The position numbers and the translations under genes are program-made. A model generated the notes under the pieces. It did not search any database and was not told the origin of the DNA. It saw only the letters and a list, made by a program, of their open reading frames with translations. This document shows positions 5,031 to 31,666 of a stretch of DNA of 64,000 bases, in pieces. Where the stretch lies: contig CACKZT010000002.1 of assembly GCA_902604695.1 (NCBI GenBank), positions 62,001 to 126,000 on the forward strand. The letters are read 5' to 3'. The stretch comes from an uncultured Pelagibacteraceae bacterium. GTDB lineage: Bacteria > Pseudomonadota > Alphaproteobacteria > Pelagibacterales > Pelagibacteraceae. Every line of letters starts with the position of its first letter. Position 1 is the stretch's first letter.

Positions 5031-6761
5031 ATGAATAAAAATAAAAACCTTTATACTCTTGGAATTTGTAATGATGAAACCGCGTCTGCTTGCTTGTTTC
5101 AAGGAGGCAAACTGGTAGGTGCTGCAAGTGAGGAAAGATTTTCCCGAATAAAGTATGACAATAATTTTCCTAATCAATCTATTAATTTTTTACTAAAAAA
5201 TTTTAATATTAAACTAAAAAACATTAATCATATTGCATATTCTTGGGTGAAAGGTTTCGATCCAAAGCTTAAATTAAAATATAAAAAAAGATTAGACGAG
5301 TGTAAGAAATCTGGAAAAAAATCACTTAAAATATTTAAAGAAAGAATAAATTCAGAATATAAACAGGATGAATTAAAAAAAAAAGAATTTAATAAATGGG
5401 CTAAAAATAATCTATCAAAAAATCAAATAAAATTACTTAAGAAATTTTACCATCATGAATCTCATGCTGCTAGCGCTGCTTACCTTAGCCCATTTAAAAA
5501 TGGTTTAGTATTAACTTCTGACGCAAGAGGAGATTACGAGTCACTTAGTATTTGGCAGTTTGACAGAAAAAAATCAAATGGTCTTAAAAAGATTTACTCA
5601 TCAACCTCAAGTGACTCTCTAGGTTTTTTTTATGGAAGAATAACTGGTCTTTTAGGTTTTAAACCCATGAAGCATGAGGGAAAAATTACTGGCTTGGCAG
5701 CCCATGGGAATCCTCTTAAAGCAATGAAAATAATGAAATCAATGATCACTGTTAAGAAAGGTGAAATTATAGCTTCACTAGGAGATTTTTATAGACCTTT
5801 TTTTACAAATTATAATAAAAAACTTGTGAAAAGAATTAAAAAATTTTCACGAGAAGATATAGCTGCTGCGGCCCAAAAACATTTAGAGTGGTGTTTGTGT
5901 GAAATATTAAAATTTCATGTAAAAAGATTAAAATTAAAACCGATGCCCTTAATGTTGGCCGGTGGAACTTTTGGAAATGTAAAAGCTACCCAAGCTTTAA
6001 AAAATTTAAAATGTATTACTAAGGTTTTTGTACAACCTCAAATGGGTGACGGTGGACTTTGCTTAGGAGCTGCAGCTCTATCATTGCATATAAGAAGGAA
6101 AAATATATTACCTTTAAAAAATGTTTATTTAGGTCCATCTGTTGCTATAAAAAATATTAAATTGTTTAAAAAAAAATACTCTAACCTATTTTTTAAAAAG
6201 ATAAGTAATATAAAAGATTATATTGTAAAAGATTTAGTTGACAATCAAGTGATAGGTTTTGTTAGAGATAAAATGGAATTTGGGCCAAGAGCTTTATGTA
6301 ATAGAAGTATAATTTATAAAACAAGTGATAAATCTATTAATGACTGGCTTAACAAGAGGATGCGTAGAACCGAATTTATGCCTTTTGCTCCAGTTGTAAG
6401 AAATAATACAGCAAAAAAAGCTTTCATAAAATATCAAAATAATGATCCAACTTTTAACTTTATGACTTCAACAATAGACTGTTCGAAAGAATTTGAAAAA
6501 AAATGTCCTGCAGTAACTCATGTTGATCTTACGGCTAGACCTCAAATTATATACAAAAAAGACGATCCTTTACTGTGGAATATTTTACGAGAATGGGAAA
6601 AAACCTCTGGAGAGATGGCATTAGTAAATACTTCTTTTAATGCTCACGAACAACCAATAATTTGTAATGAAACTCAATCTATCAATGCATTAAAATCTGG
6701 AATGATAGATGTTTTGTATATAAAAGATATTAGAATTGTAAAAAAAAGCTCAATTATCTAA
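5031..6761 (+). CDS. Carbamoyltransferase, NodU/CmcH/TobZ family
   Basis: GICNDETASACLFQGGKLVGAASEERFSRIK N-terminus, HHESHAASAAYLSPF, EFGPRALCNRSI, LVNTSFNAHEQPI C-terminal motifs. Confidence 0.93.
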   Translation: MNKNKNLYTLGICNDETASACLFQGGKLVGAASEERFSRIKYDNNFPNQSINFLLKNFNIKLKNINHIAYSWVKGFDPKLKLKYKKRLDECKKSGKKSLKIFKERINSEYKQDELKKKEFNKWAKNNLSKNQIKLLKKFYHHESHAASAAYLSPFKNGLVLTSDARGDYESLSIWQFDRKKSNGLKKIYSSTSSDSLGFFYGRITGLLGFKPMKHEGKITGLAAHGNPLKAMKIMKSMITVKKGEIIASLGDFYRPFFTNYNKKLVKRIKKFSREDIAAAAQKHLEWCLCEILKFHVKRLKLKPMPLMLAGGTFGNVKATQALKNLKCITKVFVQPQMGDGGLCLGAAALSLHIRRKNILPLKNVYLGPSVAIKNIKLFKKKYSNLFFKKISNIKDYIVKDLVDNQVIGFVRDKMEFGPRALCNRSIIYKTSDKSINDWLNKRMRRTEFMPFAPVVRNNTAKKAFIKYQNNDPTFNFMTSTIDCSKEFEKKCPAVTHVDLTARPQIIYKKDDPLLWNILREWEKTSGEMALVNTSFNAHEQPIICNETQSINALKSGMIDVLYIKDIRIVKKSSII

Positions 6762-8167
6762 GAAACCTCACGAGTGTTCGCATTGAAAGATTGAGTAAAT
6801 GGAATTTTCACAACTACTGCATCTACGGGTTTTACAGAGTATTTTTTAGGAAGATGTACCTTATATTTTTTACCTAAATTCCCAATTGGAAACCCGGTGG
6901 CACTCAAATGACCTTCGTAAGGAACGTAGCCCATAGCTATATTTGTTCCTTTTTCTGGATGATACCAAGGCGAAGTAATATACCCAATAGGTTTACCACC
7001 ACTACTATTTGATATTAGATAAAAATCGTTAGCATAATCTTCAATAGGTTTTCCTCCAAGCTCTAAACCAACTAATTGTAATTTATAAGGTTTTTCGCCG
7101 TTTTGTATTTGTTTTTTCATTTTTTCCAGAGCTTCTTTACCAATATAATCAGTTTTCTTTTCCCAAACTCCCTTGCCTGATAATGAAACTTGATATCCTA
7201 AATTACATTGAAATGGATTTGTTTCATGGTCCAAATCTTGACCCCATGATAAAATACCTGCTTGAATACGTCTGTGATGAGCAGGGGCTATTACCATTAA
7301 CTTGTGTTTTTTTCCTTCTTTAAGAACGGCATTCCACATGTCTTCAGCATATAAAGTTGCATTTCTCAAGTAAATTTCATATCCAGCTTCACCAGAAAAT
7401 CCTGACTGAGATATTACACAACTTCGACCCCCAACTTTTGCTTCTGCTAAACCATAAAATGGCATCTTGTCTAAATCTACTTGATCACCTATTAAATCGT
7501 TCATCAAAGCTTTTGATTTTGGACCTTGTATTTGAACAGGACAAGAATCTATTTCGTCTATTTCAACGTTGAATCTTTTATCAGCATTAACTCCTTGAAG
7601 GTAAAGACCGATATCAGAGTCCGATAAACTAAACCAAAACTCATCTTCAGCAACTCTCAATAAAACAGGATCATTAAGTACTCCTCCTTTATAATTGCAC
7701 AAAATTACATATCGACCTCTCATTGTTGAAATTTTCGTAGCGTCTCTTGTTATTACATAATCTACAAATTTTTCAGCATCTGGTCCTTTAACTCTAATTT
7801 GTCTTTCAACAGCAACATTCCACATAGTTACATGGTTTTTAATGGCGTGATATTCTACCATTGCCCCACCCTTTTCAGGTCTAACATAACCTCTAGGATG
7901 ATAAATTCTGTTATACACTGTTGCTCTCCAACATCCTGCTTTCATAGATAAATGCCAATAAGGAGATTTTCTCACTCTTGTTGATATGAGCATTTCAACT
8001 TTAGTAGGACCACTTTGTCTTAAATTATACGGAACTTGTCTATCTGATTGATCGACTGAAGTTTCATGACGAATTTTATCGTAATTAATTTTTTCTTTTT
8101 TTAGAGATATTAATTTAAATTTTTTTTTTGCTTTGTTTTTTTTTACTTTTTTAATTTTTTTTGGCAT
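6758..8167 (-). CDS. GcvT-family aminomethyltransferase / DmdA-like demethylase with Lys-rich N-terminal extension
   Basis: STRVRKSPYW..., VAVERQIRVKGPDAEKFVDYVITRDATK, GGVLNDPVLLRVAEDEFWFSLSDSDI, PVQIQGPKSKALM, SGFSGEAGYEIYLR: GcvT/DmdA family folate-binding motifs. Confidence 0.85.
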   Translation of the reverse strand: MPKKIKKVKKNKAKKKFKLISLKKEKINYDKIRHETSVDQSDRQVPYNLRQSGPTKVEMLISTRVRKSPYWHLSMKAGCWRATVYNRIYHPRGYVRPEKGGAMVEYHAIKNHVTMWNVAVERQIRVKGPDAEKFVDYVITRDATKISTMRGRYVILCNYKGGVLNDPVLLRVAEDEFWFSLSDSDIGLYLQGVNADKRFNVEIDEIDSCPVQIQGPKSKALMNDLIGDQVDLDKMPFYGLAEAKVGGRSCVISQSGFSGEAGYEIYLRNATLYAEDMWNAVLKEGKKHKLMVIAPAHHRRIQAGILSWGQDLDHETNPFQCNLGYQVSLSGKGVWEKKTDYIGKEALEKMKKQIQNGEKPYKLQLVGLELGGKPIEDYANDFYLISNSSGGKPIGYITSPWYHPEKGTNIAMGYVPYEGHLSATGFPIGNLGKKYKVHLPKKYSVKPVDAVVVKIPFTQSFNANTREVS

Positions 8168-8888
8168 AATTATTTTGGATTAACCATTTATTTGTTTCCT
8201 TAAGACCTCCAAAAGTATAAATATGAAAGTGCTTAGTAACTTTCTTTAAGCTATTTATCAAGTTGTTAGGATCTCTAGGCTTCAATAAATCTAAAGTCTT
8301 ATTCTTATTAGATTTAAGAAAATTTATAGAATTTTTCGCCCCAACTATACTGGCAAACTTTAATAAGCTGCCTATTTTTAAAGGACCAGTAATTCCAACA
8401 TGAACTGGAAGATTTTGTTTAGAAATAAAACTAGAAATTACTAATGGATCTAAAAGCCATTGTGTAACAATGTAGTCGGCAAGGGGAGTTTTTTCTTTCA
8501 TAGCTTTTTCTAATTCTGAATCGGATATATCAGGGGAACCCTCTGGGTGTCCAGCAATTCCTATCTTCATCCCCTTAAATAATCCTGTCTCTAAAAGTTG
8601 CAACGAGCAGTGGTATTTTCCTAAGGGCTCTCTTCCTCCTCCTATAACTAAAGCTTGTTTTACTCCAAAATCTTTGCACATCCCTACATAAGTCTTTAAA
8701 TCATCAAAATCTTTAATTGATCTAGCTGGAAAATGAGGAACTGGATTGTATCCGTATTTGACTAATTCCTTAGATTTATTTGCAACATCAACAAAACTAT
8801 CACCGGGTAACATAGTTATATAGATATCTCGAACCTTTGGTAGAACCGACAGTTCTGTCTTAATTGTTATTTCTAAAGAAAAATTCAT
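8151..8888 (-). CDS. Short methylenetetrahydrofolate reductase-like protein
   Basis: MNFSLEITIKTE..., YGYNPVPHFPARS, QALVIGGG, KIGIAGHPEGSPD, VHVGITGP; overlaps the downstream GcvT-like gene by 17 nt. Confidence 0.75.
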   Translation of the reverse strand: MNFSLEITIKTELSVLPKVRDIYITMLPGDSFVDVANKSKELVKYGYNPVPHFPARSIKDFDDLKTYVGMCKDFGVKQALVIGGGREPLGKYHCSLQLLETGLFKGMKIGIAGHPEGSPDISDSELEKAMKEKTPLADYIVTQWLLDPLVISSFISKQNLPVHVGITGPLKIGSLLKFASIVGAKNSINFLKSNKNKTLDLLKPRDPNNLINSLKKVTKHFHIYTFGGLKETNKWLIQNNYAKKN

Positions 8889-28363: not shown

Positions 28364-28879
28364 ATGAAAATTATTTGTGACTGGGATAATTGTAATAAAG
28401 TTGGTAGCTATAAGGCTCCAATCGAGAAAGATAATAGCAGAAAATTTAGATTGCTGTGTTTGGAACATATTAAAATCTTCAACAAAAAATGGAATTATTT
28501 TGCTGATATGGATAACCAGCAGATAGAATATTTTATAAAATCGGATTTAACTTGGCATAAAACAACTAAAGGATTTAGCTCATCGGAGAATTTTTTTAAT
28601 ATTCTTTGGAATAATGCGTTAGAAGATAAGCTTAATATTTTTAAGTCTTCCAACTTTAAAGATTTTAAGAAAACCAATTTAACTACTACTGACCGTGACG
28701 CTTTGGATATAATGGACTTAAAATATGATGCAAAATGGGAGGAAATACAGAAAAAATTTAAAACCCTTGTAAAGAAATATCATCCTGATAAAAACCTCGG
28801 TAGTAAAAAATTTGAAGATAAACTAAAAAAAATTACTTTAGCTTATAGTCAATTAAAATTAACAATAGGAAAAAAATAA
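28364..28879 (+). CDS. J-domain (DnaJ-like) protein
   Basis: ALDIMDLKYDAKWEEIQKKFKTLVKKYHPDKNLGSKKFEDKLKKITLAYSQLK with HPD motif. Confidence 0.92.
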   Translation: MKIICDWDNCNKVGSYKAPIEKDNSRKFRLLCLEHIKIFNKKWNYFADMDNQQIEYFIKSDLTWHKTTKGFSSSENFFNILWNNALEDKLNIFKSSNFKDFKKTNLTTTDRDALDIMDLKYDAKWEEIQKKFKTLVKKYHPDKNLGSKKFEDKLKKITLAYSQLKLTIGKK

Positions 28880-29859
28880 TGCCCGCTAATCTTGGTATGC
28901 AAAAACCTGATATTAAAATTTCAGTAAAACAAAGTTTTGGCATAGATACAGAAATGCAAATTGATGGGTTTGCAAAGAAAAATGAGTATGTGCCAACAAT
29001 AGATCAAGATTATAAATTTGATCGAGACACAACTCTAGCAATTTTATCTGGATTTGCTTTTAACAAAAGAGTTTTAATTCAGGGATATCATGGTACTGGA
29101 AAATCAACTCACATAGAACAAGTTGCGGCTAGACTTAACTGGCCGTGTATTAGAGTAAATTTAGATAGTCATATAAGCAGAATAGATTTAATTGGAAAAG
29201 ATGCAATAATTTTAAAAGACGGAAAACAAATAACAGAATTTCAAGAAGGTATTTTACCTTGGTCAATTCAAAATCCTGTAGCTTTAGTTTTTGATGAATA
29301 TGATGCAGGAAGACCTGACGTTATGTTTGTTATTCAGCGAGTATTAGAAAGTGAAGGAAATTTTACACTTCTAGATAAAAAGAAAGTCATTGAGCAGAAT
29401 GATTACTTTAGAATGTTTGCTACGACTAATACTGTGGGATTGGGAGATACCACTGGACTTTACCATGGAACACAACAAATAAACCAAGGTCAAATGGATA
29501 GATGGAATATAGTAACTACTTTAAATTACCTATCTTTTGATAAAGAATTAGAAATTATTTTAGCAAAAAATAAAAATTTCGATAATAAAGATGGCAAAGA
29601 AACAATTTCAAATATGATTAAAGTGGCAGATCTGACTAGAAAGGGATTTATTAATGGTGATATTTCGACTGTAATGAGTCCAAGGACTGTTTTACATTGG
29701 GCTGATAATACAAATATATTTAAAGATCATGGGTATGCATTTAGAGTAACATTTTTAAATAAGTGTGATGATTTGGAAAAAAAAATAATTTCTGAATATT
29801 ATCAACGTTGCTTTGGTGAAGATTTACCTGAGTCTTCTGTAAATGTTACCATTACTTAG
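28879..29859 (+). CDS. cobS: CobS-like AAA+ ATPase (cobaltochelatase subunit CobS family)
   Basis: [70 protein letters not shown]. Confidence 0.93.
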
Positions 29860-31666
29860 AATGGAAAAAAAAGAAAACTATTTACAAGATTTTAAAACAG
29901 CAATCATTTCAACAGTAAAATCTTTATCTAATTCCGATGAAGTTGAAGTTACCTTTGGGGGCAAAAGTTCAGATAAAGAAAAAATTACTGTTAGGCTTCC
30001 TGAATTAGAAGCAAGTAATGATAAAATAAATTTTACAAAAGTAAGAGCAGTCGCTGATTCAGAGGCGCTTAAAATAAGATACAGCAATGAGGAAATTTTT
30101 AAAAAATTTGAACCTGCTGGAAATATCTCTAAAAAACTTTATTCAATAGCTGAGCAAATAAGATATGAAAAAATAGGCTCTTCAAAATTTAAAGGAATTA
30201 AAGAAAATATTCACTCTTACTACAACAAAAGGCTGGATAGCTTAGATTTAACTAAAACTGAAAATAAAATTATTGAAGCTTTTGAAAATTATTTGCGTGT
30301 AAATATACTTGGTTTAAAAAATAAAAAAAATATAGAAAAAGAGTTTAAATCTTTTAAAAAAAATTTTGATAGTGCTTTTAAATCTAAATTATTAAAAGTT
30401 GGCGAAAATTTGGGAGAACAACATAAATTTAACTCTTTAATTTCTTCAATAATAGAAGATATGGATATTGATGAAACAAATGATCAAGACCCAAAAAATC
30501 ACGAAAATGAGGAAAAATTAGACAATAAAAATAGTAGTGATAAAAATGAACAAAAAACTAAAGACAAGGATGATGAAAATCAAGAAATGTCGATTGATAC
30601 AAGCGCACCAGATGTAGAAAATTATGCAAAAGAAACGGATGATGAAGGAAAAGATGTAGAAATAGAAGATACCTCAAACCCTATCGATGGCCAGCGAAAA
30701 ATTAATTCTAATTTTGGTGATAAAAAATATAAAGCATACACTGAAGAATTCGATGAAGTTATAAAGGCAGAAGAACTTGAAAATGAGGAGGAATTAAATA
30801 GATTAAGAAAAATCTTAGACCAACAACTTCTTCAACTAAAAAGCTTCATATCAAAACTAGCTAATAAATTACAAAGAAAACTTTTGGCAAAACAAAATAG
30901 ATCTTGGAATTTTGATTTAGAAGAAGGATTGCTAGATACTTCTAAACTAACAAGAATCATAATAGACCCTTTCAATTCACTCTCTTTTAAAAAAGAGAAA
31001 GACATGGAATTCAAAGATACTTTAGTTACTATTTTAATAGATAATTCTGGATCGATGAGAGGAAAACCGATTTCTGTAGCAGCTACTTGTGCTGATATTT
31101 TATCGAGAACTTTAGAAAGATGTTCAGTAAAAGTAGAAATTTTAGGATTTACTACTAAACATTGGAAAGGCGGATCCAGTAGAGAAAAATGGTTAAAAAA
31201 TGAAAAACCTTCATTTCCAGGAAGACTAAATGATTTGAGGCACATAATTTATAAATCAGCTGATACTCCTTGGAGGCAAGCAAAAAACAACATGGGCTTA
31301 ATGTTAAAAGAAGGTTTGCTTAAAGAGAATATAGATGGTGAAGCTTTAAAATGGGCATGTACAAAAATGACGAAAAGAAAAGAAGAAAGAAAAATATTAA
31401 TGGTCATATCAGATGGAGCACCAGTAGACGATTCTTCACTTTCGACAAACTCTAGTGATTATTTAGAAACTAATTTAAAGAAAGTAGTTAAATGGATTGA
31501 AGGCAACACTGCAATTGAGTTACTGGCTATTGGTATAGGTCACGATGTTACGAGATACTATAAAAGAGCAATTAAAATTGCAGATGTTCAAGATCTTGGC
31601 GACACAATGATTAATGAGCTTACAGATTTATTTTCTGAAAGTAAAAAAAGAAATACTATTCATTAA
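29843..31666 (+). CDS. cobT: CobT-like VWA-domain protein (cobaltochelatase subunit CobT family)
   Basis: Acidic central region plus [44 protein letters not shown] and [18 protein letters not shown]-type VWA domain. Confidence 0.92.

Follow-up and report, generated by a model that had tools for sequence, protein, structure and literature searches.

A SAR11 methyltransferase–MetF2 gene pair as a candidate cobalamin-independent unit for glycine betaine demethylation and methyl oxidation

Introduction

The removal of the first methyl group of glycine betaine (GBT) in aerobic marine bacteria was resolved only in 2025, in Ruegeria, where it is carried out by the B12-dependent MtgBCD system (PMC12478193). 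In Ruegeria, GBT induces MetF2, whose gene adjoins mtgD; in R. pomeroyi no other protein changes as strongly on glycine betaine, choline, or carnitine, and MetF2 is the proposed oxidase of the methyl-tetrahydrofolate (CH3-THF) made by MtgBCD (PMC12478193). The methylenetetrahydrofolate reductase (MTHFR) of Sphingobium SYK-6 is described as the oxidative partner of LigM (PMC13001107), and MetF2-type enzymes act oxidatively beside either system (PMC12478193, PMC13001107). In Candidatus Pelagibacter ubique HTCC1062, an aminomethyltransferase of unknown substrate, related to the dimethylsulfoniopropionate (DMSP) demethylase DmdA, lies beside metF and is core in SAR11 Ia (SAR11_1265/SAR11_1264; PMC3160333). 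Here we describe what is almost certainly the same pair (orthology inferred without the HTCC1062 sequences), termed METF-AMT, in a 64,000-nt stretch (the window) from an uncultured Pelagibacteraceae bacterium (assembly GCA_902604695.1, contig CACKZT010000002.1, positions 62,001 to 126,000).

AMT and METF are ordinary in fold, and the literature has recorded them as an orphan pair from 2011 onward. We propose, with a probability of roughly 0.6, that METF-AMT works without cobalamin to demethylate a quaternary-ammonium osmolyte abundant in the ocean, most probably GBT, and to oxidize the methyl group removed. No paper found in our search of the open-licence PMC literature gives the pair this function. 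What is new here is a specific, testable function for the pair that is supported by comparative genomics.

Results

The two open reading frames (ORFs), at 6758-8167 and 8151-8888, overlap by 17 nt, as a preliminary description of the pair had stated.

6758..8167, minus strand: AMT, a 469-aa DmdA-related methyltransferase of GcvT fold (predicted glycine betaine:THF methyltransferase), recognized by its Pfam domains and its own tree clade
8151..8888, minus strand: METF, a short MTHFR of 245 aa and MetF2 type (predicted to oxidize CH3-THF), recognized by its relationship to 7xg9 and lying upstream of AMT in 78/80 SAR11 loci
8151..8167, minus strand: overlap of the METF end with the AMT start, from ORF coordinates

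The 80 best relatives in named genomes (81-95% identity) all derive from SAR11-type genomes, which marks the source as a SAR11 draft. The two SAR11 loci in which METF was not seen immediately upstream of AMT (L009, L047) end at a contig edge, so the pairing is not due to chance. The overlap suggests translational coupling; its length is again 17 nt in L005, a close relative of the window, and most other SAR11 have 8 nt. The two genes stay together at several genomic places (in the IF-1/SecA interval, beside Fe-type ABC genes, and beside PurE/PurK) and so are either moved or retained jointly; the pair is real and old. In two single-cell genomes (L059 and L071, ~5168-5897), METF appears to be split into two ORFs, either a pseudogene or an assembly error.

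We compared 19 non-SAR11 AMT loci with 20 control loci of DmdA-like paralogues by tblastn for GBT genes. Dimethylglycine dehydrogenase (DMGDH) lay within ~10 kb at 12 of the 19 AMT loci vs 1 of the 20 controls. The remaining genes were confined to AMT loci: METF (7 vs 0), Fhs (5 vs 0), SoxB (5 vs 0), GbdR (4 vs 0), SdaA (3 vs 0), BetA (2 vs 0), and ChoX (2 vs 0). Some clusters were extensive, such as DMGDH, L-serine ammonia-lyase, GbdR, Fhs, METF, and AMT (L236-L238), DMGDH, AMT, SoxBA, BetA, and ChoX (L229), or sarcosine oxidase genes with DMGDH, METF, and AMT (L242). GbdR, L-serine ammonia-lyase, Fhs, SoxA, SoxB, BetA, and ChoX scored above curated hidden Markov model cut-offs, and DMGDH-type proteins, for which a curated model is lacking, were named from their FAD + GCV_T build, length, and tree position. 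According to the preliminary description, the sequence cannot reveal the methyl donor; this is true of the sequence alone, yet the comparative context points to glycine betaine.

Whole genomes showed the same association. The AMT family, counted at ≥54% identity, occurred in 20 of 386 alphaproteobacterial genomes. DMGDH was present in 19/20 of these vs 139/386 overall (hypergeometric p = 2e-8) and short METF in 17/20 vs 76/386 (p = 1e-10), neither value being corrected for genome relatedness. A stand-alone MtgC was not found in 22 of 23 AMT genomes, the sole exception being G277; other matches to the MtgC query fell in MetH-sized frames or were trivial. No full-length BHMT-like gene was found in 13 of the 23. 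Strong GbcA-like genes occurred in G277 and G697 only, with a weaker one in G374 (AMT genomes searched, G504 left out). Strict mutual exclusion of AMT and other GBT routes is rejected, as G277 and G697 carry both. In three genomes (G071, G334, G263), the AMT locus carries DMGDH and sarcosine oxidase, accompanied in G334 and G263 by BetA and ChoX, and none of the three known GBT routes was found at the thresholds used. The step from GBT to dimethylglycine is therefore missing there unless AMT performs it. DmdA, DMGDH, and SoxA were not found in the draft genome of the window's source, which is 79% complete, and we do not interpret this absence.

METF had been described as MTHFR-like, and this holds by its relatives: it matches the SYK-6 MTHFR (7xg9) at E = 4.5e-34, and the same protein is the top fold match of its structure model. 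The Pfam MTHFR model (PF02219) does not recognize it (11.6 bits, under the 24-bit gathering cut-off).

8871..8873, minus strand: METF Glu6, which aligns with Glu28, the catalytic residue of E. coli MetF

Glu6 is invariant among 39 aligned relatives and is presumably equivalent to Glu28. With 7xg9 as its nearest solved relative and the catalytic Glu kept, METF belongs to the MetF2/SYK-6-type short MTHFRs and is predicted by analogy to oxidize CH3-THF. Where a short METF gene lies apart from AMT, it is accompanied by MtgD, RACE, or MtgC at most of the loci read.

AMT has the following build, from the N-terminus onward.

8096..8167, minus strand: variable Lys-rich N-terminal tail, ~residues 1-24
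7994..8095, minus strand: conserved N-terminal family segment, residues 25-58, including NLRQSG (alignments)
7196..7891, minus strand: GCV_T folate-binding domain, residues 93-324 (Pfam PF01571, E = 2.4e-41)
7670..7675, minus strand: N165-D166, 'ND' as in DmdA ('DD' in GcvT; alignments)
6851..7078, minus strand: GCV_T_C barrel domain, residues 364-439 (Pfam PF08669, E = 9.7e-08)

The relationship to DmdA that had been suggested from the motifs STRxRKSP and VAVERQ...GPDA...RD was borne out: both motifs are present (the first as STRVRKSP), and GCV_T matches with 142 bits (cut-off 25.6), alongside GCV_T_C. The nearest solved relative is PDB 3tfh, which we take to be DmdA of Pelagibacter. The 'ND' motif and the residues of the THF site are common to AMT and DmdA in the alignment, and D166 is invariant and aligns with an Asp conserved in both DmdA and GcvT. 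With GCV_T above its cut-off and the folate-site Asp kept, AMT belongs to the broad class of GcvT-fold THF-dependent methyltransferases. Phe257 of AMT stands where DmdA has Trp171 of the DMSP site. We dropped this residue as a discriminator because the position does not separate the groups: the DmdA-grade sequences in our set also have Tyr/Phe there, and other paralogues have Trp.

The long Lys-rich extension noted earlier is present, although it is bipartite and Lys-rich only over ~residues 1-24. That tail ranges from 0 to ~40 aa in SAR11 orthologues, a variability for which we rejected it as a functional or distinguishing trait; it is probably unimportant. The strongly conserved segment that follows (HETSVDQSDRxVPYNLRQSGPTKVEML) marks the whole AMT family, as judged from the alignments. 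Its NLRQSG core (48-53) shows no variation among 27 clade members, and nearly all DmdA, GcvT, and TDM sequences compared lack it.

The best NCBIfam match of AMT is DmdA (NF009133) at 241 bits, below the 410 cut-off, whereas a DmdA-grade SAR11 protein scores 530.8 bits. AMT also falls under the cut-offs of the GcvT models (141 < 235.85 and 163 < 300 bits), of LigM (34 < 580) and DesA (44.8 < 800), and of TDM. Maximum-likelihood analysis of 66 sequences recovers the AMT family as a single clade (99/99 support), sister to a DmdA-like clade that includes DmdA proper; GcvT, DMGDH, and SoxA are distant. The phylogenetic placement advised beforehand thus puts AMT outside both canonical GcvT and DmdA proper. 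Canonical GcvT is ruled out by the sub-cut-off scores, the distant tree position, and a separate GcvT with adjacent gcvH/gcvP in the same genome; DmdA proper by the score and the separate clade; and a LigM/DesA O-demethylase by scores far under the cut-offs. Genome searches revealed a gap between the AMT family (61-83% identity over ~residues 30-468, with one outlier at 51-54%) and its paralogues (≤43% over ~55-420). The family is present in at least 10 alphaproteobacterial families and in other Proteobacteria, and it was not found in two complete genomes of genus g2, which belongs to the same family as the source. A further GcvT-fold paralogue of 407 aa (L114 / L169:10714-11937) adjoins a DmdA gene, sits on a long branch, has 33-35% identity to AMT and DmdA, and scores below all cut-offs.

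Within SAR11, two loci have candidate osmolyte transporters upstream of the pair: in L046, ProX (334.8 bits, cut-off 215) and a ProW-like permease, which share its strand and immediately precede it, and an OpuAC-type binding protein with a permease in L083, where a BHMT-like gene and DMGDH are divergent. Fhs and NAD-dependent formate dehydrogenase adjoin the pair in many SAR11 loci. At the IF-1/SecA site, formate-THF ligase and NAD-dependent formate dehydrogenase lie directly upstream of METF (many loci in L015-L056); the window pair occupies the same site without these two genes. In one SAR11 group (L030, L041, L044, L049, L054, L055, L058, L079), the genes adjoining METF on its upstream side include a distant Rieske oxygenase (123 bits with the GbcA model, cut-off 670), a DddP-like M24 protein (358 < 600), and a possible 2-oxoglutarate-oxygenase cluster. 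EgtB/EgtD-type genes (EgtB 553 > 360 bits; EgtD-like 282 < 291) lie upstream of METF in L069, L076, L080, and L166, and an EgtD-like gene alone in L036 and L046. Elsewhere in the window (28364-31666), a J-domain protein is followed by CobS-type AAA and CobT-type VWA lookalikes, identified by eye, in a lineage reported to be without MetH and MtgC.

Discussion

The tree, the gene context, and the MetF type make transfer of a methyl group from a donor to THF, followed by oxidation, the best reading of the pair; the C1 demethylation unit envisaged in the preliminary description is thus well supported. We infer the substrate, GBT, from gene context, and the reaction likewise. AMT would bind THF in the GcvT/DmdA fold and convert GBT and THF to dimethylglycine and CH3-THF, redox-neutral as in DmdA with DMSP. 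METF, as a MetF2, would run oxidatively from CH3-THF to CH2-THF, which could then enter folate-linked C1 oxidation (FolD, Fhs, formate dehydrogenase), while dimethylglycine would pass to DMGDH and then sarcosine oxidase. On the simplest reading, AMT would take the MtgBCD slot as a single B12-free GcvT-fold protein moving the GBT methyl to THF. Such a unit would fit the observation that Pelagibacter oxidizes 14C-methyl-GBT to CO2 and incorporates a negligible share of the label (PMC3160333). This result is harder to explain by methionine-coupled BHMT alone, but it could stem from the second and third methyls.

Several observations weigh against this proposal. BHMT is the only route credited to SAR11 for the first GBT methyl (PMC12478193), one tied to methionine demand. 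AMT is not always the sole route: G277 carries GbcA-like and MtgC genes as well, and a curated GbcA is present in G697. In 5 of the 19 non-SAR11 loci (L223, L224, L226, L233, L234), AMT has no tested GBT gene in its vicinity, and distant Rieske oxygenases adjoin METF in some SAR11 loci. The co-occurrence statistics make no correction for relatedness among genomes. The position of E. coli MetF Asp120 is Gly/Ser in METF and most relatives and Asp in the SYK-6 MTHFR; flavin handling may differ. The AlphaFold model of AMT (mean predicted local distance difference test 46.5, from a shallow SAR11-only alignment) was too poor for inspection of the substrate pocket and was left unused.

The alternative that survives best, unlikely as we consider it, is that the chemistry is as proposed but the methyl donor of AMT is a different betaine or onium compound (proline betaine, beta-alanine betaine, carnitine/gamma-butyrobetaine, homarine, or a DMSP analogue), with MetF2 oxidizing the CH3-THF. 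The presence of another GBT route in some AMT genomes is consistent with it, as are several AMT loci without DMGDH or Sox, transporters of the ProXW/OpuAC kind, which are not GBT-specific, and the M24-type and Rieske genes near the pair in some loci. However, DMGDH, SoxBA, BetA, ChoX, and GbdR all belong to the route from choline through GBT and dimethylglycine to sarcosine, and the high identity (61-83%) between members from different families suggests that they share a substrate.

It is quite improbable that AMT is an accessory of N-methylglycine oxidation that captures formaldehyde or CH2-THF from DMGDH/sarcosine oxidase: it adjoins DMGDH/Sox in many genomes, but DMGDH and SoxA have their own GCV_T domain, and, were CH2-THF the product, a CH3-THF oxidase would be an odd constant partner. 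The proposal of Sun et al. (2011) that SAR11_1265 takes the second methyl in DMSP degradation, from methylmercaptopropionate (MMPA) to mercaptopropionate (PMC3160333), draws on the closeness of AMT to DmdA. We find it very improbable, given that MMPA is a neutral thioether and a poorer methyl donor than an onium, that the AMT neighbours outside SAR11 are GBT genes, and that METF occurs at 0/20 loci of DmdA-like paralogues. No less improbable is an anabolic pair in which MetF makes CH3-THF and AMT methylates an acceptor such as homocysteine: SAR11 lacks MetE and MetH (PMC12478193) and canonical MTHFR was not found in the 79% complete source draft, yet orthologues occur in catabolic clusters and in genomes whose MtgC-query matches fall in MetH-sized frames, and SAR11_1264/1265 mRNA drops under sulfur limitation or in stationary phase, unlike the rising methionine genes with S-adenosylmethionine riboswitches (PMC5069961).

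If GBT is the donor, METF-AMT would explain how SAR11 can burn GBT methyl for energy, provide a marker gene for GBT methyl flux in metagenomes, and settle the role of two core SAR11 genes left open since 2011. We hold at even odds the broader hypothesis that a widespread cobalamin-independent, folate-dependent GBT demethylase replaces MtgBCD, GbcAB, or BHMT in Proteobacteria including SAR11 and HIMB59-like members, and forms a main energy-yielding GBT methyl oxidation route in the most abundant ocean heterotrophs.

Comparison with known systems

For SAR11_1265/1264, the 2011 guess was the second DMSP methyl (PMC3160333), whereas the context across Proteobacteria points here to glycine betaine. 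AMT resembles DmdA in its GcvT fold, 'ND' motif, sister clade, and THF-dependent redox-neutral demethylation (predicted for AMT), and departs from it in score (241 < 410 bits), identity (~30%), the extra conserved N-terminal segment, the METF partner, and other neighbours. LigM/DesA with MTHFR in Sphingobium SYK-6 (PDB 7XG9, 7XLF) likewise combines a GcvT-family O-demethylase with an oxidative MTHFR, but its donors are aromatic methyl ethers, and AMT falls well short of the cut-offs of the LigM and DesA models. MtgBCD with MetF2 in Ruegeria pomeroyi (PMC12478193) shares the predicted reaction, GBT methyl to THF, and a downstream oxidase of MetF2 type; MtgBCD is cobalamin-dependent and built of unrelated subunits, whereas AMT is predicted to do the same as one B12-free GcvT-fold protein, in SAR11 bacteria without MtgC.

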